Origin: an uncultured cyanobacterium | Lineage (GTDB): Bacteria; Cyanobacteriota; Cyanobacteriia; CACIAM-69d | Direction: 5' to 3' | DNA: 62,914 nucleotides | Assembly: GCA_937883785.1 (NCBI GenBank) | Contig: CALGDE010000103.1 | Coordinates: 1 to 62,914, forward strand | Position numbers and translations under genes: made by a program | The notes under the pieces: generated by a model | Seen by the model: only the letters and a program-made list of their open reading frames with translations | Databases searched by the model: none | What the model was told of the DNA's origin: nothing | Shown: positions 18,585-32,430 of the stretch, one piece after another | How positions within the stretch are numbered: the stretch's first letter is position 1 | Layout: each line of letters begins with the position of its first letter

Positions 18585-18895
18585 TCTTTATGGTGCTCCG
18601 ATTGTTGTTTGGTTTGGCTTTGTGGGCTTAGGCGAGGGGAGCAGGCGCTAAACTGGCGCTTTCTGATTAATTTCTAGGACAGGTTCCGTGGAAATGAATC
18701 GTAAATTGCGCTTGTGAAACCTAACGGTGGGTTAGATTGCTAACAGGTTTGGTGCTGCTGCCTGAGCTTGTTTTTTTGGTTTTCTTGCTTCCTATAATCG
18801 TTGGCGATCGCCTTTACCATGAAGGGGTATTTACCGAACACTACGAGGGTGGTAAACGGCGGGGTGTCTAGGTTGCACGGGTCTTGGAGAGTGTG

Positions 18896-20233
18896 ATGTT
18901 GGCAAAGGTGTTGGCGGTTTTAGTGGCCCTGGGCAGCGTGAGTTGGTACGGGCTGGCGTGGACGTTTCCGGCGCTGAGCCGTCGCTACGATGTGATTTTG
19001 GCGGGGGCGGGGCTGTTTTATGGGTTGGTGTTGTGGGTCTGTGCGGGGCAGGTGACGGGGGCGATCGCCCTGGGACAGTTTGCGATTTTGGGTTTGTTGG
19101 GGGCGCTGGCTTATCAGGTACTGCAACTGCGTAGCGGCGCAACGGAGGAAATGGCGGCGTTGCCCCAGGGCGCAGGGATGTTGGCGTTGGTGGGGGCGGT
19201 GCGATCACGGGTCACCGGGCTAAAAGCTGCCCCCCTTCAGTTGAAGTTAACGGGCTCTGTTGGGGAAGAGACCGAGGCGCAGGAAGAAAAGCAGGAGAAG
19301 GGCGGGGCGATCGCTGTTTCGGATACGGGGGCTAAGTCCACTGAGGTCAAAGCTACGGAAACCGCTGAAACTTCTGAGTCAAAATCTGAGCCGAAAGCCG
19401 ACGTTGATGTAACTCCGTCAAAGCCCGCTAAAGGCAAGGCAGTCAAACCTAAAAAAGCGAGTCAACCGGTTGCCACCGGGAAGGGGGTTTATCAGCGTAA
19501 GAAGGTTCGCAAGTTTGATCGCGGTGAGGGTAAGACGGGAGCAAAGTCTACTGGGCAGCCGGTTTATCAGCGTAAGAAAGTCCAAAAATTTGACGCGGAG
19601 GAAGGTACGCGGGAAAAAACACGAGAGAAAAAGGAGGCGATCGCCCAACCCAAATCCACCAAACCAGCAGCAAAAGCGCAGCCAGATGTTGCGCCTCCAG
19701 CAAAGGCTCCTGAAGTTAAAGCACCCGCAGTTGCAGCACCTAAAGTTAAGCCTGCGGTGATCGCCACTTTGGCTATTGATGTTGATGGGGATTTTTGGGA
19801 GATGGCGGCGATCGCCCCAGAGCTGCTGGTGGTTTCTGAAATGGGCGCGGCTCCGAAGATGCCTGCCGTTGAGAATCCTTGGACAACGCCGCCGATGGAT
19901 CCTGAAGAGCTAACTTTTGGTGCGGCGCAGAAAATCGCGGAGGAAACGGCTAGGGAAATTGCGATCAAGTCTGAAGCCAAAAAATCCCAGCCTAAAAAAT
20001 CCCAGCCCCAAACTGCTCCCCAGCCGGAGCCAGCGGACACGAACTGGCCCGACGATGGCGATACGAATTGGCCTGACGACGGAGACACCAATTGGCCCAA
20101 AAATCCGCCAGCGCAGGCTCAGCGAAAACCTCGTAGGAAATCGCGATCGCCCGTAATTAAAGGGGAAGTGGTATCGCGACTCCCCCGTCGCCCGGTAATT
20201 TTGCGCGCCGAGCTGATTAAAGACGACGACTGA
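18896..20233 (+). CDS. ycf66: Ycf66-family membrane protein with long charged tail
   Basis: A 445-residue protein. The first 85 residues carry two or three hydrophobic helices (VLAVLVALGSVSWYGLAWTF, then VILAGAGLFYGLVLWVCAGQ) and match the Ycf66 family of cyanobacteria and some plastids, whose function is unknown. The remaining 360 residues are Ala/Pro/Lys/Glu-rich and probably disordered, with internal repeats: VYQRKKV-K-KFD occurs twice (19486-19595) and DTNWPDDG nearly three times (20036-20098). The ATG at 18896 has GGAG seven bases upstream; a TTG at 18884 is less likely. Most Ycf66 proteins have shorter tails than this one. Confidence 0.75.
   Translation: MLAKVLAVLVALGSVSWYGLAWTFPALSRRYDVILAGAGLFYGLVLWVCAGQVTGAIALGQFAILGLLGALAYQVLQLRSGATEEMAALPQGAGMLALVGAVRSRVTGLKAAPLQLKLTGSVGEETEAQEEKQEKGGAIAVSDTGAKSTEVKATETAETSESKSEPKADVDVTPSKPAKGKAVKPKKASQPVATGKGVYQRKKVRKFDRGEGKTGAKSTGQPVYQRKKVQKFDAEEGTREKTREKKEAIAQPKSTKPAAKAQPDVAPPAKAPEVKAPAVAAPKVKPAVIATLAIDVDGDFWEMAAIAPELLVVSEMGAAPKMPAVENPWTTPPMDPEELTFGAAQKIAEETAREIAIKSEAKKSQPKKSQPQTAPQPEPADTNWPDDGDTNWPDDGDTNWPKNPPAQAQRKPRRKSRSPVIKGEVVSRLPRRPVILRAELIKDDD
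19486..19595 (+). repeat. Two in-frame copies of a VYQRKKV motif, period 75 bp
   Basis: GGTTTATCAGCGTAAGAA occurs at 19486-19503 and again at 19561-19578. Both copies continue with a similar sequence coding KFD. The copies lie in the charged tail of the Ycf66-like protein. Confidence 0.85.
20036..20098 (+). repeat. 24-bp in-frame tandem repeat coding DTNWPDDG
   Basis: Two full copies and one partial copy of a 24-base unit code DTNWPDDG, DTNWPDDG, DTNWP. The nucleotide copies differ at several third positions, so the repeat is not recent or is under protein-level selection. Confidence 0.85.
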
Positions 20234-20376: not shown

Positions 20377-22137
20377 TCAAAACTTGAACTGGGGACGCCA
20401 CTGGACAGAGAAATAAAGCCCGTTTTCCTGCCAGGTGTCACGCACAATATCCACGTCGGTGAGGGGGATGCCGTAGTCCAAGCGAATGGTTAGAAAGTCC
20501 CCCTGCTGCCACCGTAAGCCCACGCCCACCCCTGCCAGCAAGTCAGGGTCAGGGTCGGGGCGATCGCCCAAGTTCCAGCCTTTACCCACATCGAGAAACG
20601 GAATCACCTGCAATACGCCACCGCCAGCTAAATCCGCTTCTGACACCCGCCACACAGGCAACCGCAATTCTGCCGACACTAAAAATCCGCTGTCAGTCAG
20701 CAACTGATCCTGGCGATAGCCCCGCACGGAAAAGGGACCGCCGGAACTAAATTGCTCCAGGGGCACAACGGGGCGATCCGCGAGCTGAAGATCACCGCGC
20801 AGCAGAAATAGAGAATCACGACCTAGCTGGCGCACCCACTGGGCCTGTCCTTGCCAACTAAAAAATTCTGCGTCGGGGGACACTCGCCGGGTGGTGGCGT
20901 CTAGGGCGTCGATGCCCCAGGTGAACTGCGATCGCACCGCAAACACCTGTTGGGTATCCCGCTGGGTCCACTCCTGAAACAGCCCCACCTTAGTTAGCCG
21001 CGTTTCTCCATCTTCATCAGCCCCCGGCGACAGTTGAAAATCTTCTCCCAAAAGCTGGGTTTCACTGCGCAAATGGCTGAGGGTTACCCCCAAAGCCAAC
21101 TCCCGGTCCGGCTTACGAAAAATGGGCTGGCGATAGGTGAGATCAAACTGTCGTGACTCCGCCTCAATATCCAGGGCGTTAAAAGGCTCCTCAATCACCT
21201 CGCTGCTGTTCAAAGCCATCCGCAGCGCAATGGTTCCATCCATCCCATTAATGGGTACTTCATAGCGTAAATCCCAAGCGTCGCTGCCCTGGGTATAGGT
21301 ATAGCCCACTTCTAAAGAGTCGCCCCAACCGAGTAAATTGCCGTGGGTGCCCGTTACCTGTAGCCGTGTGCTGCCCACCGATGGCGATCGCCCATTATCC
21401 GTGGACAGCTCCAAATCCAGAGGGTTTGCCTCCGTCAACTCCACCCGCAATAGGTTCTCCCCCGGTCGCAGCCCCGCCGATAACTCCGCCGAAATTTTTT
21501 CAATTAGCGGATCCAACTGCAAAAGCTGTAGCGCCTCCAGCACCCGGTTCGTATTCAGGGGAGCCTGAAGCGATCGCCGCAGCCGACTACGCACATAGGA
21601 ATCTTGAAGGCGGTCCAGCCCCACAATTTCTAGCGCCTCCAACCGCCCCTCCAAAATTTGCAGCACCACCGTGCCATCGGTAATGGTTTGCAGGGGCACA
21701 AAGGCTCCCGACGTGGTGTAGCCCGCTTTGATGTAGTGCTCGGTAATAACCGTACGCGCCTCCAACACCTCCTCAAAGCGCAGCTCCCGATTTTGATAGT
21801 CCTGCAACAGCGCCGACAGCTCCTCGTCGGAAAACACCGTATTTCCCCTAAAGCGGTAGCCCCGAATAAACACCGCCTCCCCCGCCCCATCCGCAGGAGG
21901 CTGCACAGAATCCCCAGGATCTGGCGTTTGGGGATCCTGGGGCAGGATTTCGTCCAGGGGCGGCAGGGGGCTGGGCTCCTCCGGCGGGCGATTGTCAGGC
22001 AGGGGATCCAGTTGGGCTTGGGCGATACCTTGAAAGGAAAGCGGGAGGGCGATCGCCGTACCGAGAAAAGGCGCAATCACCCGGAGCCAAACCGTACAAT
22101 GCCAAAGTCGCGAGCGGGGAGAGCCAAAAGTAGCCAT
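20377..22137 (-). CDS. ShlB/FhaC/HecB-type outer-membrane transporter (TpsB)
   Basis: A 586-residue Omp85-superfamily protein. A signal peptide (hydrophobic stretch about residues 20-42, ending near IAQAQ) is followed by a Pro-rich spacer and a POTRA domain pair (about 88-235, starting VFIRGYRFRGNTVFSDEELS). The C-terminal beta-barrel begins at about 240 and ends in an aromatic residue (QWRPQFKF). FSSGGPFSVRGY matches the conserved barrel motif with the V/I-R-G-Y/F core. Two-partner-secretion porins export large TpsA proteins, while some cyanobacterial homologues serve other outer-membrane roles. No TpsA exoprotein gene is next to it, so the substrate is unknown. Confidence 0.88.
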   Translation of the reverse strand: MATFGSPRSRLWHCTVWLRVIAPFLGTAIALPLSFQGIAQAQLDPLPDNRPPEEPSPLPPLDEILPQDPQTPDPGDSVQPPADGAGEAVFIRGYRFRGNTVFSDEELSALLQDYQNRELRFEEVLEARTVITEHYIKAGYTTSGAFVPLQTITDGTVVLQILEGRLEALEIVGLDRLQDSYVRSRLRRSLQAPLNTNRVLEALQLLQLDPLIEKISAELSAGLRPGENLLRVELTEANPLDLELSTDNGRSPSVGSTRLQVTGTHGNLLGWGDSLEVGYTYTQGSDAWDLRYEVPINGMDGTIALRMALNSSEVIEEPFNALDIEAESRQFDLTYRQPIFRKPDRELALGVTLSHLRSETQLLGEDFQLSPGADEDGETRLTKVGLFQEWTQRDTQQVFAVRSQFTWGIDALDATTRRVSPDAEFFSWQGQAQWVRQLGRDSLFLLRGDLQLADRPVVPLEQFSSGGPFSVRGYRQDQLLTDSGFLVSAELRLPVWRVSEADLAGGGVLQVIPFLDVGKGWNLGDRPDPDPDLLAGVGVGLRWQQGDFLTIRLDYGIPLTDVDIVRDTWQENGLYFSVQWRPQFKF

Positions 22138-23612: not shown

Positions 23613-24075
23613 AGGCGAAGATTTGGAGGGGCGCTGAAAAGTCGAAGACGCGTTAAAAATTCAAAGGGAAAATGGTTTTGACACTGTTTTGACATTAGGG
23701 TGCCCAACAACCGCCCTTTCGAAAAATTCCCCCATTAAAAAATCTCCCGTCAAAACGCCCGCCGTAAAGTCTCAATCCATTTCTCAATCCATTCCCCATC
23801 GACTCCAGCCAGTTTCCAGCCAGTTCCCCGTCAATTCCCGATAAAAATTTCCAAATAAAAACGGCTGGCTTGCCGCTTCCTAGGAAACTTTTAAACCAAC
23901 CGCGCTCGCTCCGTCGATGTATTCAATATCCCAAACCCGAATTTGCGATCGCGTACACGATACGTTTGCGTTCAGAAAAAAAACGTATAACTTTACTGGT
24001 TGCCCTCAATTGCGCACCCGTGAAAACTACTAATTGCCAACAACCTATTCCGCATCACTTCTCCCATTGCCGCCC
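23613..24075. other. Spacer with short tandem duplications, divergent promoters
   Basis: No gene is supported. TCTCAATCCATT is repeated in tandem at 23770-23793 and TCCAGCCAGTT at 23804-23825. No B12 box or cobalamin-riboswitch core could be recognised before the downstream cobalamin gene. One HIP1 site lies near 23946. Confidence 0.5.
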
Positions 24076-25956
24076 ATGCTTCCCGTTGTGATTGCCCCCA
24101 CTGCCCGTGCTTCCCAGCTAGCCCTACGTATCCAAGCGGGCTTCCCTGGGTCAGAACTATGGACCAAGCACCCTCCCAGCGAAGGCACTGGGGTTCACAA
24201 ATACGACAACCTCGGGGCGTTGGTTTCTCGGCAGTGGACAGAGCGATCTCCCCTGGTTTTCGTTCTGGCAACGGGGGCGATCGTGCGCTTAATTGCCCCA
24301 CTGCTGAAAGATAAAACCACCGATCCACCGGTGATTGCGGTAGATGAAACCGGGCGCTACGTGCAGTGTTTATGCGGTGGTCACGGGGCGGGGGGACACA
24401 CACTGACCCGTTCTGTGGCGGCGCTGTTGGGGGTGGAGCCGATTCTAACCACCGCCTCGGAGTCTCAAAATATTGTGCCCGTGGACACCTTGGGAGATCC
24501 CTACGGCTGGCGGCGCGGGGACGGCGATTGGTTGGGGGTGGCGCGAGCCCTCACCAGCTACGAAACCGTGGCAACGGTGCAAACCTGTGGCTGGAAATTG
24601 TGGCTCGAAAACCTACCGGACTGGAATTCTTTTGTTGCCCTCGCTCCAGTGGATTTTGAGCTAGATCCAGAGGATCCCAATCCCGCCGAAGCGGTGTTAT
24701 GGATTAGCGATCGCCACCCTCCAAACTTGGGCCACCGCAATCTTCCTATCGCCTGTTGGCACCCCCGCACCCTATGGATTGGCGTAGGCTGCGAACGGGG
24801 CGCGTCGGCAGAATTACTCAGCCAAAGCATTGACACGGTGTTGCAGAAAGCAGGGCTGGCGAAAGAGGCGATCGCCGGACTAGCGTCTTTGGATCTCAAG
24901 AAAGACGAGGCGGGGCTACTGGAGCTGGCTCAGCAATGGGACGTAACCATTCAGTTTTACGACGCGGATACGTTAAAAGCCGTCACCGTACCCAACCCGT
25001 CGGCAGTGGTGGAACAAGCGGTAGGAACACCAGCGGTGGCGGAGGCGGCGTGTCAAATGGCGGCTAGCGAGGAAGCAGGCTCACAGGCATTACTGGTGGA
25101 AAAATCCACCTTCCGCGATAAAAGCGGGGCTTGCACCGTGGCCGTGGCGCGATCTCCCGTGGAATATACCTCGCGCACCGGGGAAATGTACCTAATCGGC
25201 ATCGGGCCCGGCGCCCTGGATCAAATCACGCCTGCGGCCCAACAGGCCCTTAGCCGCTGCGACGTGCTCATCGGCTACGAGCTTTACCTCAGCCTAATTC
25301 GCCCCCTTTTAGACTCCTGGAAAAATCCCCAGCAGGTTACCGAAGGCACCCCCATCACCAAAGAGCGCTATCGGGCAGAGCGGGCAATTTCCCTTGCCCA
25401 AAAAGGACTAACCGTGGGCGTTATTTCCTCCGGCGACTGCGGCATCTATGCCATGGCGGGTTTAGTGCTCGAATGTTTAGCTCAGCAAAATTGGGACGGG
25501 CACACCCCCAGCGTCACCACCTATCCCGGCATCACCGCCCTCCAAGCCGCCGCCGCCCGAGCTGGAGCACCACTGATGCACGACTTTTGCGCCATTTCCT
25601 TATCAGACCTGCTGACTCCCTGGGAGGTGATTCAAAAACGCCTCCAAGCCGCCGCCAGCGCTGATTTTGTCGTCGCCCTATACAACCCCAAATCCAAAAC
25701 CCGAGTCAGCCAAATTGCCTACGCCTTTGACCAATTTCGCCAGTGGCGACTTCCCGACACCCCAGTAATTGTGGCGAGATCGCTGTACCGTCCCGACGAA
25801 ACCATCACCATCACCACCGTCCGCGACGTGGATCTGGACACCATTGATATGGTCACCGTCGTTATCATCGGCAATCGCACCACCTTTAACCATCAGGGGA
25901 TTGCAATTACGCCCCGAGGCTACCCGTCGCCTGAAACTTCAGAGCCAGGCAAATAA
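24076..25956 (+). CDS. cobJ: CbiG-CobJ fusion, cobalamin biosynthesis
   Basis: A 626-residue two-domain protein. Residues about 1-340 match CbiG (cobalt-precorrin-5A hydrolase): LATGAIVRLIAPLLKDK and LCGGHGAGG are its conserved blocks, and the C-terminal part contains LWIGVGCERGAS. Residues about 375-615 are a tetrapyrrole methylase of the CobJ/CbiH type (MYLIGIGPGALDQITPAA, SSGDCGIYAMA and ALYNPKSKTR), which methylates C17 and contracts the corrin ring. This fusion is known from other cyanobacteria. I chose the ATG at 24076; a TTG at 24034 is in frame. No other cobalamin gene is in the window. Confidence 0.92.
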   Translation: MLPVVIAPTARASQLALRIQAGFPGSELWTKHPPSEGTGVHKYDNLGALVSRQWTERSPLVFVLATGAIVRLIAPLLKDKTTDPPVIAVDETGRYVQCLCGGHGAGGHTLTRSVAALLGVEPILTTASESQNIVPVDTLGDPYGWRRGDGDWLGVARALTSYETVATVQTCGWKLWLENLPDWNSFVALAPVDFELDPEDPNPAEAVLWISDRHPPNLGHRNLPIACWHPRTLWIGVGCERGASAELLSQSIDTVLQKAGLAKEAIAGLASLDLKKDEAGLLELAQQWDVTIQFYDADTLKAVTVPNPSAVVEQAVGTPAVAEAACQMAASEEAGSQALLVEKSTFRDKSGACTVAVARSPVEYTSRTGEMYLIGIGPGALDQITPAAQQALSRCDVLIGYELYLSLIRPLLDSWKNPQQVTEGTPITKERYRAERAISLAQKGLTVGVISSGDCGIYAMAGLVLECLAQQNWDGHTPSVTTYPGITALQAAAARAGAPLMHDFCAISLSDLLTPWEVIQKRLQAAASADFVVALYNPKSKTRVSQIAYAFDQFRQWRLPDTPVIVARSLYRPDETITITTVRDVDLDTIDMVTVVIIGNRTTFNHQGIAITPRGYPSPETSEPGK

Positions 25957-26685: not shown

Positions 26686-27558
26686 TTAGACTGAGCGCGG
26701 CGTCAACCAATTAACCTCGCCAGGAGCGAAACCAATCAGATTATTCGCAGGGTACTGTTTTTCTAAATGAGACAAAAGCTGTTGGTTAGCCTCAAAAAAC
26801 TCATCAGCCAGCCTGAACTTTAGAGCGTCCGCAGATTCAGGATACTTACCGGAATTGTGGCGTAATTCAGACAGGAATTGAAATTCATCTAGCCCTAGAA
26901 AATCAGTCACCCTACCCAGCACAGACGCTGAGTATTTATCAAAAAATTCACTTTGAATAACCAATATATTCTCCGAGGAAAAATACTTTTCCCAACACAG
27001 AAGCTGTTTCAGATAAAATCCTCTTTTCACATAACTATGATGCTGATAGCCATAGCTTTGATAGTTTGAATTTTCTATAAATTTATCCGCTTCTCCTTCT
27101 AGTCTTTCATTCTCTATATCTATAGCATCACCTAACTCTAGAGACTCAAAACCCCAGCGACATTCATGGTGATATTGAGATAATGCACGCGCCACAGGAT
27201 CCCTCAGCAGCACAATTAATTTGACATTTGGAACACATTCAAAAACCCTTTCTGGCACTAATGGGTGAAAAATATAATAAGGACTCGCCTCACCAGTGAT
27301 CACTTTTTTCCCATTACTATTAATTAGTTCTTTTGCCCTTAGTTGCTCAAGATACCAGTCCCATCCCTTATCAAAATTTAGATCGAAAAAATGAACTTCC
27401 TTTGTCAACGATTCTTGAATCTGAAGATGCTGCTGAAGATAGTTATAAAGGGATGTAGTTCCGCCTTTCTGCACTCCAATAATCAGAAAATATGGCACAG
27501 AAGCTTGATCTGATTTAAATTTTCTTCGCCACAGCTTTTTCAACAACCTTTTAATCAT
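26686..27558 (-). CDS. Sulfotransferase, membrane or cytoplasmic
   Basis: A 290-residue PAPS-dependent sulfotransferase of the bacterial/heparan-type superfamily. FLIIGVQKGGTTSLYNYL is the 5'-phosphosulfate-binding loop near the N-terminus, and LLRDPVARALSQYHHE is the 3'-phosphate-binding block. A basic stretch (RLLKKLWRRKFK) precedes the domain. I chose the ATG at 27558; a GTG at 27579 would add seven residues. The gene is clearly richer in A and T than its neighbours, and I saw no HIP1 site in it. It is last in a minus-strand cluster with Wzm/Wzt, a glycosyltransferase and a second sulfotransferase, so a sulfated glycan is the likely substrate. Confidence 0.88.
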   Translation of the reverse strand: MIKRLLKKLWRRKFKSDQASVPYFLIIGVQKGGTTSLYNYLQQHLQIQESLTKEVHFFDLNFDKGWDWYLEQLRAKELINSNGKKVITGEASPYYIFHPLVPERVFECVPNVKLIVLLRDPVARALSQYHHECRWGFESLELGDAIDIENERLEGEADKFIENSNYQSYGYQHHSYVKRGFYLKQLLCWEKYFSSENILVIQSEFFDKYSASVLGRVTDFLGLDEFQFLSELRHNSGKYPESADALKFRLADEFFEANQQLLSHLEKQYPANNLIGFAPGEVNWLTPRSV

Positions 27559-27589
27559 AAGTCCACAACACAAACGCACTTATCTTTAA

Positions 27590-28696
27590 CTACTTATCGA
27601 GTCTTTTGATCACCCGACCTATCCTGGCTTTTAGTCGCCACCATCGACTAGTTAAAAGTTGGTGGTGTACCTGGCGCAAAGAATTCAACTCTTCTAAAAC
27701 TTTTCCATACTCCTCTTGCCAATAGTTACTTTGGGACATCGCCGTTTCAAGTTTTAGTTCAAAATCTTCTCTTTCAGTTCCTACTGCCTTAGTACTTTCC
27801 AAATCCTCCTCAATCCACTGAAGGCGATCTTTTAAAATTTGATTTTTCTCAAAATATTGATCCCGCTCCTGTTGAATGATCGCCAATTCGGCGCTAATTT
27901 TCGACACTTTCTCCGAGTATTGAAACGCCTCATCTAAAGCATCCAGGCGTTGAGCTTCCTTAGTAGAAAATACGTCCGCGAACTGAGCAGAATATAATTT
28001 TGAGTGCTTGCTGCAAATATATTGAAAAAGCCGTTTTCGATTAGCTGGTAAATTACAGCCGCTCACCATGGAATCAGGGCGCGATCGATACTGAAACGCC
28101 ACTTGATTCACATAGGCAAACTGCCAGCCCGCCTCCACAGCTCCCAACCAAAAGTCCCAATCTTCGTAGCCCAACTGGTCGGGAATTTCAGAATCATAGC
28201 CCCCCACATCTTCCCAAACTTGCCGCCGAAACAAGGCACAGGCGTCAATATAGTTTCCCAATAAGAGGCGGCTCACCCTAAACTCCGCCATTTCCACCCA
28301 CTGATTCTGTTGACCAAAAACTTGGCGATCGCCATAAACAACACCAATTTCTGAATCTTCTTCTAACAGCACCAACGCCTTTTTTAGAAATCCTGAGACC
28401 AGTCTATTATCCGCATCTAAGGGCAAAATATAAGGGTACTTAGCCTGTTCAATTCCGAAATTTCTAGCCCCAGACAATCCTCTATTTTTAATATTAAAAA
28501 CTTGATGGCTTTCCCGTTCCAACTTCTCCACTATCGCCAAGGTCACTGAGGCCGTTGAACCATCGTTGACAATAATCACTTCCCCAACTAACGGTTCATT
28601 TTCTGCGCTAGCGATCGCCTCTAATAAGAATTGACCATGGTTATAGCAAGGAATAATAACGGAAACATACGGCTCTGATTCTTTATCTACACTCAT
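27590..28696 (-). CDS. Family 2 glycosyltransferase with coiled-coil tail
   Basis: A 368-residue protein. Residues about 8-240 are a GT-A fold family 2 glycosyltransferase: YVSVIIPCYNHGQFLLEAI, VIIVNDGS, and PLDADNRL (the DxD metal site). QLGYEDWDFWLGAVEAGW carries the ED catalytic block. Residues about 255-345 form a coiled coil, and the end is basic (SRWWRLKARIGRVIKRL), possibly membrane-associating. It probably adds a sugar to the exported glycan of this cluster. Only 11 bases separate it from the upstream sulfotransferase gene, which supports one operon. Confidence 0.9.
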   Translation of the reverse strand: MSVDKESEPYVSVIIPCYNHGQFLLEAIASAENEPLVGEVIIVNDGSTASVTLAIVEKLERESHQVFNIKNRGLSGARNFGIEQAKYPYILPLDADNRLVSGFLKKALVLLEEDSEIGVVYGDRQVFGQQNQWVEMAEFRVSRLLLGNYIDACALFRRQVWEDVGGYDSEIPDQLGYEDWDFWLGAVEAGWQFAYVNQVAFQYRSRPDSMVSGCNLPANRKRLFQYICSKHSKLYSAQFADVFSTKEAQRLDALDEAFQYSEKVSKISAELAIIQQERDQYFEKNQILKDRLQWIEEDLESTKAVGTEREDFELKLETAMSQSNYWQEEYGKVLEELNSLRQVHHQLLTSRWWRLKARIGRVIKRLDK

Positions 28697-28707
28697 TTAA
28701 CAGCGCC

Positions 28708-29757
28708 CTACCGTTGAAACCGATCAAAAAAGCGGCGCTTCAAACGCACATAGCCACGGGTAACCCGAGATTGTTCATAAACCCTTAGGGCTGATTCTAA
28801 GTAATGGAGTCGATCGCCCAAAACCTTAGAATCTTGGGAATATTGTCGCTCTTGCTGTAACTTTTGGGCGTAAAGAGACAGCAAATAACGCTCTGGAAAT
28901 TCACTTTCAACAGGAAGTTTTTCCTGAAGATCAAAGTTAAGGGGGGCATCAAAATTTCGGCTGGATGGCAAGTCGGAATGATAGTCCAAAAGTCCTAATA
29001 ATGCAGAATACCGTGGGGCGATCGCGTTAAGTCCCTGAACCAAGTTTGAGTTGATACTCATTTCTCCCATAAGCCCTGGCTCAATTATCGTTGCTGAGTC
29101 AAGCTGGGTCACGGAAGATGCATCTAAGCCAAGCTTGTGCACAAGAGCTTCTCCGATAAAGTTCGGACTTTTCAACAGGGAATTAATATTAAATAAAACT
29201 GATTGACTTGAGTGGCGACGATAGAAATCTAACAGATGCCAATTGTAGAAAAACCAAGCTCTAATGCCCATATCAGCATTATCTAAAAAGTAAGGATGTC
29301 CAATTCTAAAAATCGAGTCTGCCACATCCCAAGGCAAACGATAAACCAACACAAATTTGGCGTCGGGAAGGAGATCTTTCCAGAAATCAAGCATCAGTGT
29401 GGTGCGGGGATCTTTCCAGCCCCAGCACATTTTTTCCTGCCGTTGATAAATTAATTCTTGGGCGTCTAACTGGGCATTTTTCCAGTGACTCCGATCTAAC
29501 CTTTCTTCTGCGGTCCACCCCCAATCTGTCCATGCCGGTTGGCGATCGCCGCAGGATTCTTGTAATAACTTCCGCTGAAACTCTAGGAAGTCAACGTCCT
29601 CAAAATACCCTCGCCGATTATGCTGATCCGCAGAGAAAAGATTGCTGCCAATATCAATTCCACATTGTTTAAGGATTGACGCCGTTAAGGACGTTCCCGA
29701 ACGATGCATGCCCGTGACAATTATCGGTGAATGATTGATTATTCTGGGAGCTGACAT
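28708..29757 (-). CDS. Sulfotransferase family protein
   Basis: A 349-residue protein with IIVTGMHRSGTSLTASIL (about residues 12-29), the PAPS-binding loop of this family, and CWGWKDPRTTLMLDFW and LVYRLPWDVADSIF as further conserved blocks. It belongs to a different branch from the sulfotransferase at 26686. The C-terminal 60 residues form a coiled coil ending in a basic segment (YVRLKRRFFDRFQR), like the end of the neighbouring glycosyltransferase. Two distinct sulfotransferases in one cluster suggest sulfation at two positions or on two sugars. Confidence 0.85.
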   Translation of the reverse strand: MSAPRIINHSPIIVTGMHRSGTSLTASILKQCGIDIGSNLFSADQHNRRGYFEDVDFLEFQRKLLQESCGDRQPAWTDWGWTAEERLDRSHWKNAQLDAQELIYQRQEKMCWGWKDPRTTLMLDFWKDLLPDAKFVLVYRLPWDVADSIFRIGHPYFLDNADMGIRAWFFYNWHLLDFYRRHSSQSVLFNINSLLKSPNFIGEALVHKLGLDASSVTQLDSATIIEPGLMGEMSINSNLVQGLNAIAPRYSALLGLLDYHSDLPSSRNFDAPLNFDLQEKLPVESEFPERYLLSLYAQKLQQERQYSQDSKVLGDRLHYLESALRVYEQSRVTRGYVRLKRRFFDRFQR

Positions 29758-29875
29758 CGACTTTACGGCTCTTCCTAAAAATCTCTACAACCAACTTTTA
29801 CGATTGATTCTAATCTCTAGTCAGGTCTAACTTCTAGAGGAAATTTTAAATCCAATAAACTGCATTGAAATGTGG

Positions 29876-31369
29876 CTACACACCAAACTTTTCCATTGAA
29901 GCATCTTCATAAACGGTTAAATCTGGATCCACTAAAAAATCAACTATTTCACTGCCCCAAAACACATCTTCCGGTTGTTCGACCCTAAACATCGCAGCAT
30001 CAACCTGTCGATCTAAAAAGCTGAAATGATCATCAATTGTGCCTGATGCGCCTGCATTCACGAAGTAAGTCCCTGTATTTAGCAAGCACTTAAACCTAAA
30101 TTCGACTTTTGCCAAACTTCCGGCCTTGATAACGTCCACAGAGTATCGTTTGGCCACTAGGGAGGCGCCGCCCAAGCCCAACCCGCGTACAGTCTTAATC
30201 AACATTCCGAATCGCGCTTGCTTCACGTCCTTATCAAACTTCACGGAGTATCGATACAGATATTCTTCACGACCAATTAAACAGTTAACCTGCTTGCCTC
30301 GAAGGGTGGTGATGATCGGGTCAATGATTTTTGCACCATTGGATTCATAGTGCTCCGTTGTTTTAGGTTTTAGGTCAGGGTCAAAGCTGGCTTCTAGGCG
30401 ATCGCCCCGCCCATTTATCCCAGAAGACGCGCCGGTCCCGTTCGAAGCATTAACCGATTCCACTGTGGGCAATGGAAATTGGCTAAACGGCAGCTCTAAT
30501 TTTTTGGGAAATCCATTGGCATGGGCAATTTCTCTTACGATTTTCGTCTTTCTTTGTTTTTTACCTGCCGGTGGTGCCTTCGCCAAGCTGCTATTGAGGC
30601 GTCTAATTTGATCCTTTACCGCATCCGCTTTTTCAGGGGGAGCATACAGAAGTTTTTGATATTTATCAACCACTAGTTTTGGTCTTCCATCTAATAGCAA
30701 TTCGCCCTGATCGAGCAGCACCGCGCGATCGCACAACTCCACAATGGTGGAAGCACCATGGGATACAAATAGAATGGTGCCTCCCTCATCACGAATCGCT
30801 TTAATGCGGGCAAAACATTTACGCTGAAATGCTTCGTCACCAACGGACAAAGCTTCATCCACCACCAAGATATCTGGATCCGTATGGACCGCAACGGCAA
30901 AAGCCAAGCGCACAAACATACCGCTGGAGTAGGTTTTTACCGGTTGGCTGAGGAATTCTCCAATGTCAGCGAACTTAACGATGCGGTCATATTTCCCTTC
31001 AACTTCTTTTTTACTCAGCCCCAACATTTGGGCATTGAAAAATATATTTTGTTCGCCGGTAAATTCAGGATTAAAGCCGCTGCCCAACTCTAACAGTGCC
31101 GAAATTCGCCCCTTTAAATCAACACTCCCTCGGGTGGTCTGAAGGGTACCCACAATAATTTGCAGAAGGGTGCTTTTCCCCGAGCCGTTTCTACCGACAA
31201 TGCCTAGGGTTTCACCACTAGAAATTGACAGGTTGATATCTTTTAAAGCCTGGAATTTTGGAGCAGGGAATCGCCCTGGAAACATGAGTTCCCTTAAGCG
31301 CTCTGATGGATTTTCATAGCGTTGAAATTCCTTGGAAACATTATTGATTTGGATAACCGTATTGTCCAT
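29876..31369 (-). CDS. wzt: Polysaccharide ABC exporter ATPase with Wzt-type C-domain
   Basis: A 497-residue protein. Residues about 1-245 form the ATPase: GIVGRNGSGKSTLLQI is Walker A, TYSSGMFVRLAFAVA the signature and DILVVDEALSVGDEAF Walker B. GFNPEFTGEQNIFFN is typical of O-antigen and teichoic-acid exporters. After a linker of about 90 residues, residues about 335-490 form a beta-sandwich like the carbohydrate-binding domain of Wzt, which reads the end of the finished glycan. It pairs with the permease just upstream. The C-domain implies export of a terminally modified polymer, and the sulfotransferases alongside may supply that modification. Confidence 0.92.
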   Translation of the reverse strand: MDNTVIQINNVSKEFQRYENPSERLRELMFPGRFPAPKFQALKDINLSISSGETLGIVGRNGSGKSTLLQIIVGTLQTTRGSVDLKGRISALLELGSGFNPEFTGEQNIFFNAQMLGLSKKEVEGKYDRIVKFADIGEFLSQPVKTYSSGMFVRLAFAVAVHTDPDILVVDEALSVGDEAFQRKCFARIKAIRDEGGTILFVSHGASTIVELCDRAVLLDQGELLLDGRPKLVVDKYQKLLYAPPEKADAVKDQIRRLNSSLAKAPPAGKKQRKTKIVREIAHANGFPKKLELPFSQFPLPTVESVNASNGTGASSGINGRGDRLEASFDPDLKPKTTEHYESNGAKIIDPIITTLRGKQVNCLIGREEYLYRYSVKFDKDVKQARFGMLIKTVRGLGLGGASLVAKRYSVDVIKAGSLAKVEFRFKCLLNTGTYFVNAGASGTIDDHFSFLDRQVDAAMFRVEQPEDVFWGSEIVDFLVDPDLTVYEDASMEKFGV

Positions 31370-31476
31370 GGATAATCAATAAGAGGTCCAGAAGTTAACG
31401 GGGGACAGGGGCATCAAGCCACAAAATTGACAGCGTTCACAAGGCTTTTCTACCAGTTTCTGGAAGATTGTAGAAC

Positions 31477-32334
31477 CTACAAAACGTCGGAGAAGCTGGG
31501 ACGTAACGCGCGGTAAGTTTTCCAGCCAATGCCGAAGAGAAGGGTCGATATGCCGCCAAGAAATATCCACTGGGACAGGTGATTAACGCTGCCCACAATC
31601 AGTAAATCTCGGTAAACTTCGGCGATCGTTGCCACCGGATTTAGCCAAAATACCCAGTCACGCCAGGCGTTGGGAATAACAGAGACAGGATAAACCAACG
31701 GCGTTAGGTAAAACCAGAGGTTAATCACAATCAAAATTAGCTGGGGCAAGTCTCGGATAAAAACGGTCAACCCCGCAAGGAGGTAGGCCAGTCCGGTGGT
31801 GAATAGAAGTTGGGGCAGCCAAATAAAGGGCAGTAAAAATAGAGTAAGGGGCAGGGATTGGTCGCCCAAAAAGTCCATAATCAAAAGCAGCAGTACCCCT
31901 GGCAGGCTTTCAATAAAGGCCGTGGCGACGGGGACAAGGGGGAGAAGCCCTAAGGGAAAGACAACCTTTTTAACCAGGTTAGGCTGATTGAGAACGGCGA
32001 GGGAAGACTGGGTAACGCTGGCGATCAGGGTGTTCCAGGGGAGCAAGCCAGCGTAGAGCCAGGTGCCAAAGGTGAAGTTGCTTTCGGGTACGTTGCTGAT
32101 ATTCAGCTTGACCTGGAGGATGACGGAGAAAACGTAGGTGTAAATGGCGATTTGGGAGAGCTGGTGCACCAAAGACCAGAAGGTGCCCAACATTGAGCCG
32201 CTGTATTTTGCCTCCAGGTCGCGGATCACGAGAGATCGCAGCAATTCCGCATTTTTTCGCTGGGCAGTTATGTTGGTAAGTCGGCTTAGCAAGGCAGGAA
32301 AACGGGTGCTACTGTCATGGGCGGTGTGCGTCAC
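31477..32334 (-). CDS. wzm: Polysaccharide ABC exporter permease (Wzm type)
   Basis: A 285-residue ABC-2 type permease with six hydrophobic segments. LLRSLVIRDLEAKYSGSMLGTFWSLVHQ is the conserved amphipathic entry of Wzm/TagG-like permeases. I chose the GTG at 32334 because AGGGGG lies seven bases upstream. A longer frame from a TTG at 32379 lacks support. Together with the ATPase it should move a lipid-linked polysaccharide across the inner membrane. It is the first gene of the minus-strand cluster. Confidence 0.9.
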   Translation of the reverse strand: MTHTAHDSSTRFPALLSRLTNITAQRKNAELLRSLVIRDLEAKYSGSMLGTFWSLVHQLSQIAIYTYVFSVILQVKLNISNVPESNFTFGTWLYAGLLPWNTLIASVTQSSLAVLNQPNLVKKVVFPLGLLPLVPVATAFIESLPGVLLLLIMDFLGDQSLPLTLFLLPFIWLPQLLFTTGLAYLLAGLTVFIRDLPQLILIVINLWFYLTPLVYPVSVIPNAWRDWVFWLNPVATIAEVYRDLLIVGSVNHLSQWIFLGGISTLLFGIGWKTYRALRPSFSDVL

Positions 32335-32430
32335 TGAACACCCCCTATGGGGCGTTGAATGGATGCATGCCGAGAGCAATGGAATCTTAAGCAGTATACA
32401 GTGGGCGATCCCTTAGATTCCCTAGACCCT

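Follow-up and report, generated by a model that had tools for sequence, protein, structure and literature searches.

An exporter gene pair adjoins two sulfotransferase genes

The window that we analyzed is a stretch of 62,914 nucleotides that comprises the whole of contig CALGDE010000103.1, which belongs to a 4.84-Mb cyanobacterial genome. Five intact, co-directional genes lie on its minus strand from position 32379 down to 26686 in the order wzm, wzt, ST3, GT2 and ST1 (Table 1), with intergenic gaps of 107, 118, 11 and 10 bp. A first-pass annotation of this DNA had placed the same five genes here in close order, which our analysis confirms, and had given their span as 26686-32334; the gene set stands, and the upper end may lie slightly further out, as the wzm open reading frame begins with TTG at 32379. 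The cassette is flanked upstream by a thioredoxin-like open reading frame on the same strand (178 bp away) and downstream by ycf34 (367 bp away).

Table 1. Genes of the cassette, with positions in the window and assigned or proposed roles
Gene	Position	Strand	Description
wzm	31477..32379	-	ABC-2 permease, O-antigen/capsule exporter type; start codon uncertain
wzt	29876..31369	-	ABC ATPase with C-terminal carbohydrate-binding domain (CBD), residues about 325-487
ST3	28708..29757	-	PF13469 sulfotransferase; beyond the catalytic domain, a 42-residue helix and then an amphipathic tail of 18 residues; proposed cap enzyme that would act as a terminal sulfotransferase
GT2	27590..28696	-	Glycosyltransferase whose C-terminal part is helical, with an amphipathic tail; possible polymerase or adaptor enzyme
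ST1	26686..27579	-	PF00685 sulfotransferase, heparan-sulfate type (3-OST/NDST-like); proposed chain-decorating enzyme

All five encoded proteins exceed the gathering cut-offs of their Pfam matches. Wzm matches ABC2_membrane (PF01061, 61.6 bits), Wzt matches both ABC_tran (PF00005, 80.7 bits) and Wzt_C (PF14524, 90.5 bits), ST3 matches Sulfotransfer_3 (PF13469, 42.3 bits; cut-off 27), GT2 matches Glycos_transf_2 (PF00535, 84.5 bits) and ST1 matches Sulfotransfer_1 (PF00685, 58.7 bits). Among the NCBIfam matches listed, none of the five proteins scores above its cut-off, and the model nearest to Wzm is galactan Wzm/RfbD at 39 bits, which is under the cut-off. A Wzx flippase, a Wzy polymerase and a PCP were absent among the nine proteins scanned, which include the cassette and its neighbors, so that the locus does not have the make-up of a synechan-type Wzx/Wzy cluster. 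Over the whole genome, Wzt_C and PF00685 each occur once and PF13469 occurs in two proteins. Two of the genome's three sulfotransferases thus lie within 5 kb of its sole Wzt, which indicates that their co-location is neither chance nor a by-product of many copies. Promoter and terminator scans of the cassette gave signals that were not above those of shuffled sequences, so that its status as an operon draws on spacing and synteny only.

Predicted activities of the exporter and the sulfotransferases

The Walker A (GRNGSGKST), signature (YSSGM), Walker B and H-loop motifs of Wzt are invariant across six genomes of the window's order. By profile, its CBD matches the Escherichia coli O9a Wzt C-domain (2r5o) with an E-value of 1.3e-16. 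The predicted model of the C-domain (pLDDT 85; 12 sequences) aligns with 2r5o at Z 15.1 and an rmsd of 2.5 over 142 residues, and it aligns with the CBDs of Aquifex aeolicus and O12 at Z 14.4 and 13.0, respectively. A permease that adjoins an ATPase with intact nucleotide-binding motifs and a predicted jelly-roll CBD suggests a CBD-dependent exporter of the Wzm/Wzt type.

For ST3, the predicted model shows a sulfotransferase fold (pLDDT 80) that aligns at Z 16 with the tyrosylprotein sulfotransferases TPST1/2 with PAP. Among solved structures, this fold comes closest to tyrosylprotein sulfotransferases and to domains of polyketide synthases, which means that the acceptor is not fixed by the fold. 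The motifs GMHRSGTSL and WGWKDPRT, which contain the phosphate-binding RSGTS and KDPR, are invariant, and in the TPST alignment the KDPR lysine falls on the TPST KDP lysine, a catalytic residue. We predict that ST3 is a PAPS-dependent sulfotransferase of the PF13469/TPST-like type with motifs for binding both the 5' and the 3' phosphate.

Beyond the catalytic domain, the ST3 model continues with a helix (residues 288-329) and a basic amphipathic tail (residues 331-348), whose moment of 0.58 was reached by 0.6% of shuffles. In this monomer model, the hydrophobic a/d fraction of the helix is at most 0.67, and at 42 residues the helix is short for a molecular ruler. In known systems, a coiled coil separates the terminator from the polymerase modules, which sit at its opposite end, either in one chain or as separate proteins (PMC11231755). 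At the loci L100-L103, the ST3 domain forms the N-terminus of a protein of 1734-2140 aa. Two of these proteins were scanned (L101 and L103), and both continue beyond ST3 with two GT2 modules and then a GT4 module; L103 also has a coiled-coil match behind its ST3 domain. The Pfam scan of ST3 returned PF13469 only and no methyltransferase or kinase domain, which suggests that ST3 is not a member of the WbdD family, though it could work like a terminator.

ST1 matches profiles of 3rnl (1e-33), the 3-O-sulfotransferase 3-OST-3 (1t8t, 1.9e-30) and the N-sulfotransferase NDST1 (1nst, 3.9e-24), and its motifs QKGGTTSL, KE.HFFD and LLR.P..R are conserved in six genomes of the order. ST1 is predicted to be a PAPS-dependent sulfotransferase of the heparan-sulfate 3-O-/N-sulfotransferase type, with the PAPS-binding loops and a putative catalytic Glu of that type.

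Conservation and co-inheritance of the cassette

The arrangement wzm-wzt-ST3-GT2-ST1 recurs in each of the six genomes of the order, with GT2 missing only in G005 and thus kept in five of them, and the Wzm orthologs share 57-90% identity across all six. The cassette occupies two chromosomal sites. In the window's genus it sits between trxA and ycf34, whereas in G001, G002, G003 and G005 the downstream gene is different and the contigs end just upstream of wzm. The ends in G001-G003 run into a reverse-complement 5S rRNA, which we recognized by eye and which places the cassette behind 5S rRNA; the G005 contig ends at an equally short distance, with no 5S rRNA visible. That the cassette recurs at different genomic sites suggests that it has been kept together as a block.

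We searched 390 Cyanobacteriia genomes with a profile of the Wzt alignment. Full-length matches with the same C-domain (at least 550 bits) were found in 28 genomes, of which 22 lie outside the window's order and span ten families; the remaining matches were mostly to the ATPase domain only. ST3 (at least 120 bits) is present in 27 of the 28 genomes with this Wzt versus 27 of the 362 others (Fisher 1.5e-25, with kinship ignored), and ST1 orthologs (at least 300 bits), several of them unlinked to wzt, are present in 15 of the 28 versus 1 of the 362. The first-pass annotation had named a lack of co-inheritance between the sulfotransferases and wzm/wzt as grounds against its reading, and we found that both are co-inherited with this Wzt, sometimes without linkage.

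These patterns bear on whether the sulfotransferases are mere neighbors of the exporter, with an unrelated small molecule, lipid or protein as their acceptor, as the solved folds nearest to ST3 would allow. We consider this very improbable, given that the genes are retained together across chromosomal sites and in unlinked form, the fusion of ST3 to glycosyltransferases and methyltransferases described below, and the resemblance of ST1 to heparan-sulfate enzymes. ABC-dependent export of a sulfated glycan, as the first-pass annotation proposed, is the natural reading of the locus, and from family membership and synteny we judge it likely that the cassette encodes a Wzm/Wzt export system for such a glycan.

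ST3 tracks the type of Wzt C-domain

In a tree of Wzt C-domains, ST3 lies within 4 kb of wzt on the same strand in 28 of the 33 rows of clade A, in which the C-domains are nearly all 160-164 aa, and in 7 of 7 rows of clade B, versus 0 of 32 other Wzts. The ST3-linkage label requires 5 changes on this tree, or 6 on a tree of the ATPase domain, against about 24 when labels are shuffled. Of the five clade-A exceptions, four (G010, G017, G062 and G236) encode an ST3 elsewhere in the genome, and in three of these four it is an ortholog of the linked copies of relatives. At the remaining exception, L110, an adjacent glycosyltransferase fusion contains a domain that weakly resembles a sulfotransferase (PF13469, 21 bits, under the cut-off). 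The ST3 tree places the window's own ST3 in a clade of 21 with full support, 20 of which are linked to wzt. This tree and that of Wzt lack congruence, which indicates that the two have not evolved in lockstep, and the glycosyltransferase content of the ST3-Wzt loci varies from none to many modules.

A stricter version of this relationship, in which ST3 is exclusive to Wzt loci, was rejected, as some 23 ST3 loci lack a wzt in the surrounding several kb. In picocyanobacteria (family f2), ST1 and an ST3 fused to GT2 form a pair near an ABC ATPase that carries no CBD. The ST3 relatives that lie far from wzt or near a CBD-less ATPase indicate that a CBD is not required for ST3.

These observations bear on the main competing explanation, a serious one that the first-pass annotation had also offered as decoration before export, in which Wzm/Wzt exports the glycan while both sulfotransferases modify only internal sugars and the export signal is something else (methyl, another cap or none). 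We regard this as a substantial possibility, somewhat less probable than a terminal sulfate. It is favored by the ST3 relatives that exist without a CBD exporter, by the methyltransferases present in some clade-A loci, and by synechan (xss) of Synechocystis sp. PCC 6803. Like the cassette, the xss cluster combines two unlike sulfotransferases with glycosyltransferases, but synechan is exported through Wzx/Wzy rather than through an ABC exporter with a CBD, so that both of its sulfotransferases serve a system that contains no CBD, and deletion of xssE barely altered the product (PMC8205485). However, a purely decorative role leaves unexplained why ST3 follows the CBD type of Wzt and not the variable glycosyltransferase content, and why it occupies a gene slot that is elsewhere held by a methyltransferase.

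That slot lies after wzt. For other Wzt types, a methyltransferase of the TylF, RMNT_CmcI, FkbM or another class was found there in 16 of 19 scanned loci, in one case as the second gene. Loci of clades A and B have a sulfotransferase in the slot, either alone, as in the window, or together with a methyltransferase. O-methyl is an established cap, and the A. aeolicus CBD reads a terminal O-methyl group (PMC9445017). The position of ST3 in the slot of a capping-class methyltransferase suggests that sulfate may be a tag of an undescribed kind.

A methyltransferase accompanies ST3, as an MT-ST3 fusion or neighbor, at the clade-A loci L020, L021, L099, L100-L102, L104, L107 and L108, where it was called by Pfam for part and by synteny for the rest, and the arrangement ST3-MT occurs in L140. 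At these clade-A loci, the cap may be methyl, with sulfate as a decoration. These fusions and neighbors could also reflect a composite cap, in which ST3 sulfates and another enzyme methylates the terminal residue and the CBD reads both, as with the methyl-phosphate of O9a; methyl-phosphate, which is made in two steps, caps both O3/O9a and O7 (PMC11231755). For the window, a composite cap seems unlikely, as methyltransferases are absent from the cassettes of its order, its own included, an absence that also counts against a purely decorative role for ST3.

An arginine in the predicted cap pocket

We compared the CBDs of the two groups of loci. A profile of the sulfotransferase-linked CBDs scores O9a (64 bits) above A. 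aeolicus (22 bits), whereas a profile of the other type, drawn mostly from methyltransferase-linked loci, scores A. aeolicus (81 bits) above O9a (28 bits). In the A. aeolicus CBD, Trp362 stacks on the methyl group of the cap (PMC9445017). The residue of the window's Wzt that aligns with Trp362 is Arg454, and Arg occupies this position in 32 of 32 scorable clade-A domains and in 7 of 7 clade-B domains, whereas Trp, Tyr or Met prevails among other Wzts, only one of which (L151) has Arg. The O9a CBD, whose cap is methyl-phosphate, likewise has Arg, within a matching LDRRYD motif; for the O12 CBD (5hno), the profile alignment stops short of the pocket column.

Because this contrast was spotted after the fact and is structured by clade, we examined another 41 Wzts, drawn from 40 additional loci; 4 of these Wzts have Arg. 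Three of the four are in picocyanobacteria-like genomes (family f2) that contain ST3-type genes, either 20-25 kb away (G332 and G389) or on another contig (G324), and the fourth is in a genome with no PF13469 gene (G119). At the follow-up loci with non-Arg Wzts, the regions examined gave no match to a catalytic sulfotransferase domain, and HMM matches were to the helical tail only. The idea that R454 predicts sulfotransferase linkage was rejected, since the four Arg cases are mixed and the picocyanobacterial sulfotransferases lie near the CBD-less ATPase. Given its post-hoc origin and the mixed follow-up, the Arg/Trp contrast is supporting evidence and not proof; it points to a CBD that may read an anionic polymer end.

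A possible role for sulfate in export

The single mechanism that best accounts for these findings is a polymerase-terminator Wzm/Wzt system in which a terminal sulfate is added by ST3 and recognized by Wzt, which we hold at a little under an even chance. Assembly of the chain, on a lipid carrier at the membrane's inner face, would be the work of GT2 together with glycosyltransferases encoded elsewhere. With PAPS as donor, ST3 would then sulfate the growing non-reducing end, and this terminal sulfate would halt elongation. Recognition of the sulfate by the C-terminal domain of Wzt would license export through Wzm, and ST1 would place sulfate along the chain. The product would be a sulfated, lipid-linked surface glycan that is either O-antigen-like or capsular; we know of no glycan chemistry from this group. 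The first-pass annotation had suggested that sulfate could form the export signal, and the gene slot, the CBD type, the Arg in the predicted cap pocket and the terminator-like architecture predicted for ST3 lend that suggestion indirect support. Somewhat more tentatively, we propose that a terminal sulfate written by ST3 and read through the conserved Wzt CBD Arg adds one more class to the caps that license export by CBD-type Wzm/Wzt systems, beside methyl, methyl-phosphate and Kdo, and that it extends to ten or more other families of Cyanobacteriia.

Cyanobacteria are known as a phylum for their sulfated surface glycans, and the cassette provides a concrete, testable gene set for such glycans beyond the one characterized Wzx/Wzy system. 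If ST3 is a chain terminator, then terminal sulfate would be a new chemical class of export tag that ties sulfur supply to cell-surface assembly. A transporter domain could then be matched to its tag by sequence, with a methyltransferase corresponding to an aromatic pocket residue and a sulfotransferase to Arg, which would aid the engineering of bacterial sulfated polysaccharide production.

Relation to known systems

The polymerase-terminator O-antigen systems include those of E. coli O8/O9a (equivalent to Klebsiella pneumoniae O5/O3), K. pneumoniae O4, O7, O12 and A. aeolicus. In known systems, the CBD licenses only terminated chains for export (PMC11231755). The caps named in the available parts of two papers are methyl, methyl-phosphate and Kdo, and sulfate is not among them there (PMC9445017, PMC11231755). 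Our survey of the literature, which covered it incompletely, found no paper that names a sulfate cap for Wzt. The cassette shares with the polymerase-terminator systems a Wzm, a Wzt with a jelly-roll CBD and a modifying enzyme encoded beside wzt, and the ST3 loci share with them fusions of the modifying enzyme to glycosyltransferases and the succession of catalytic domain, helix and amphipathic tail, which for ST3 is predicted. In contrast, the modifying enzyme of the cassette is a sulfotransferase, whereas that of the polymerase-terminator systems is a methyltransferase, kinase or Kdo transferase. Unlike those systems, the cassette also encodes a second sulfotransferase, of the heparan-sulfate type.

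The first-pass annotation had held the combination of sulfotransferases with ABC export to be uncharacterized as far as it knew, which overstates its novelty, as cyanobacterial ABC-type clusters with sulfotransferases were mentioned, though not studied, in 2021 (PMC8205485). The new elements here are the close association between a CBD subtype and ST3, the substitution in the slot after wzt and the pocket prediction. Another cyanobacterial Wzm/Wzt, that of Synechococcus elongatus PCC 7942, has been proposed to serve the O-antigen (PMC4390846); in our S. elongatus control genome, PF14524 was matched and neither PF00685 nor PF13469 was. Outside the cyanobacteria, the wbsalmo O-antigen cluster of Aeromonas salmonicida also encodes Wzm/Wzt and, directly after wzt, ORF19 with a sulfotransferase domain, which is not among the mutants listed in the available part of that paper (PMC4483657). 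ORF19 differs from the cassette's enzymes in being small (216 aa) and uncharacterized, and wbsalmo also encodes a WbbB-type enzyme (PMC4483657).

Sulfotransferases with and without wzm/wzt

In four loci of sister genera (L010, L011, L012 and L014), the contig ends approximately 300 bp or less upstream of wzm. This end reads as 5S rRNA in three of the four, which suggests that the cassette in those three loci lies directly behind an rRNA operon.

At L181 (G010:C1:4210000-4223500), the ST1 and ST3 genes are adjacent to each other and distant from wzm/wzt, which indicates that they move as a pair at this locus; a class II aminoacyl-tRNA synthetase gene adjoins them. Small picocyanobacteria-like genomes of family f2 (L233, L239, L242 and L243) encode an ST1-type protein together with an ST3-GT2 fusion of 834-909 aa. 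In L233 and L239, an ABC ATPase that lacks the carbohydrate-binding domain (about 270-290 aa) is encoded close to these genes, and sulfated glycans may thereby have a second route, of the KpsMT-like kind. At L100, L101, L102 and L103, ST3 is fused to GT modules in very large proteins of 1734-2140 aa, the one at L103 additionally containing a methyltransferase domain, and these fusions are possibly entire polymerase-terminator machines on a single chain. The genome of the window encodes a third sulfotransferase (PF13469, 312 aa; L003, G000:C81:12404-13015), which was apart from any glycan gene seen within its 3.6-kb locus.

Additional open reading frames of the window

Features of the window outside the cassette
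Feature	Position	Strand	Description
Repeat ORF	18884-20233	+	Head-to-tail DTNWPDDG repeats close to C-terminus
Two-partner-secretion type outer-membrane transporter	20377-22137	-	ShlB/FhaC with POTRA (family scan)
640-aa ORF	24034-25956	+	Resembles fused CbiG-CobJ, judged by eye

On inspection by eye, the 640-aa ORF resembles a cobalamin enzyme. The repeat ORF also contains long stretches rich in Lys/Ala/Pro.
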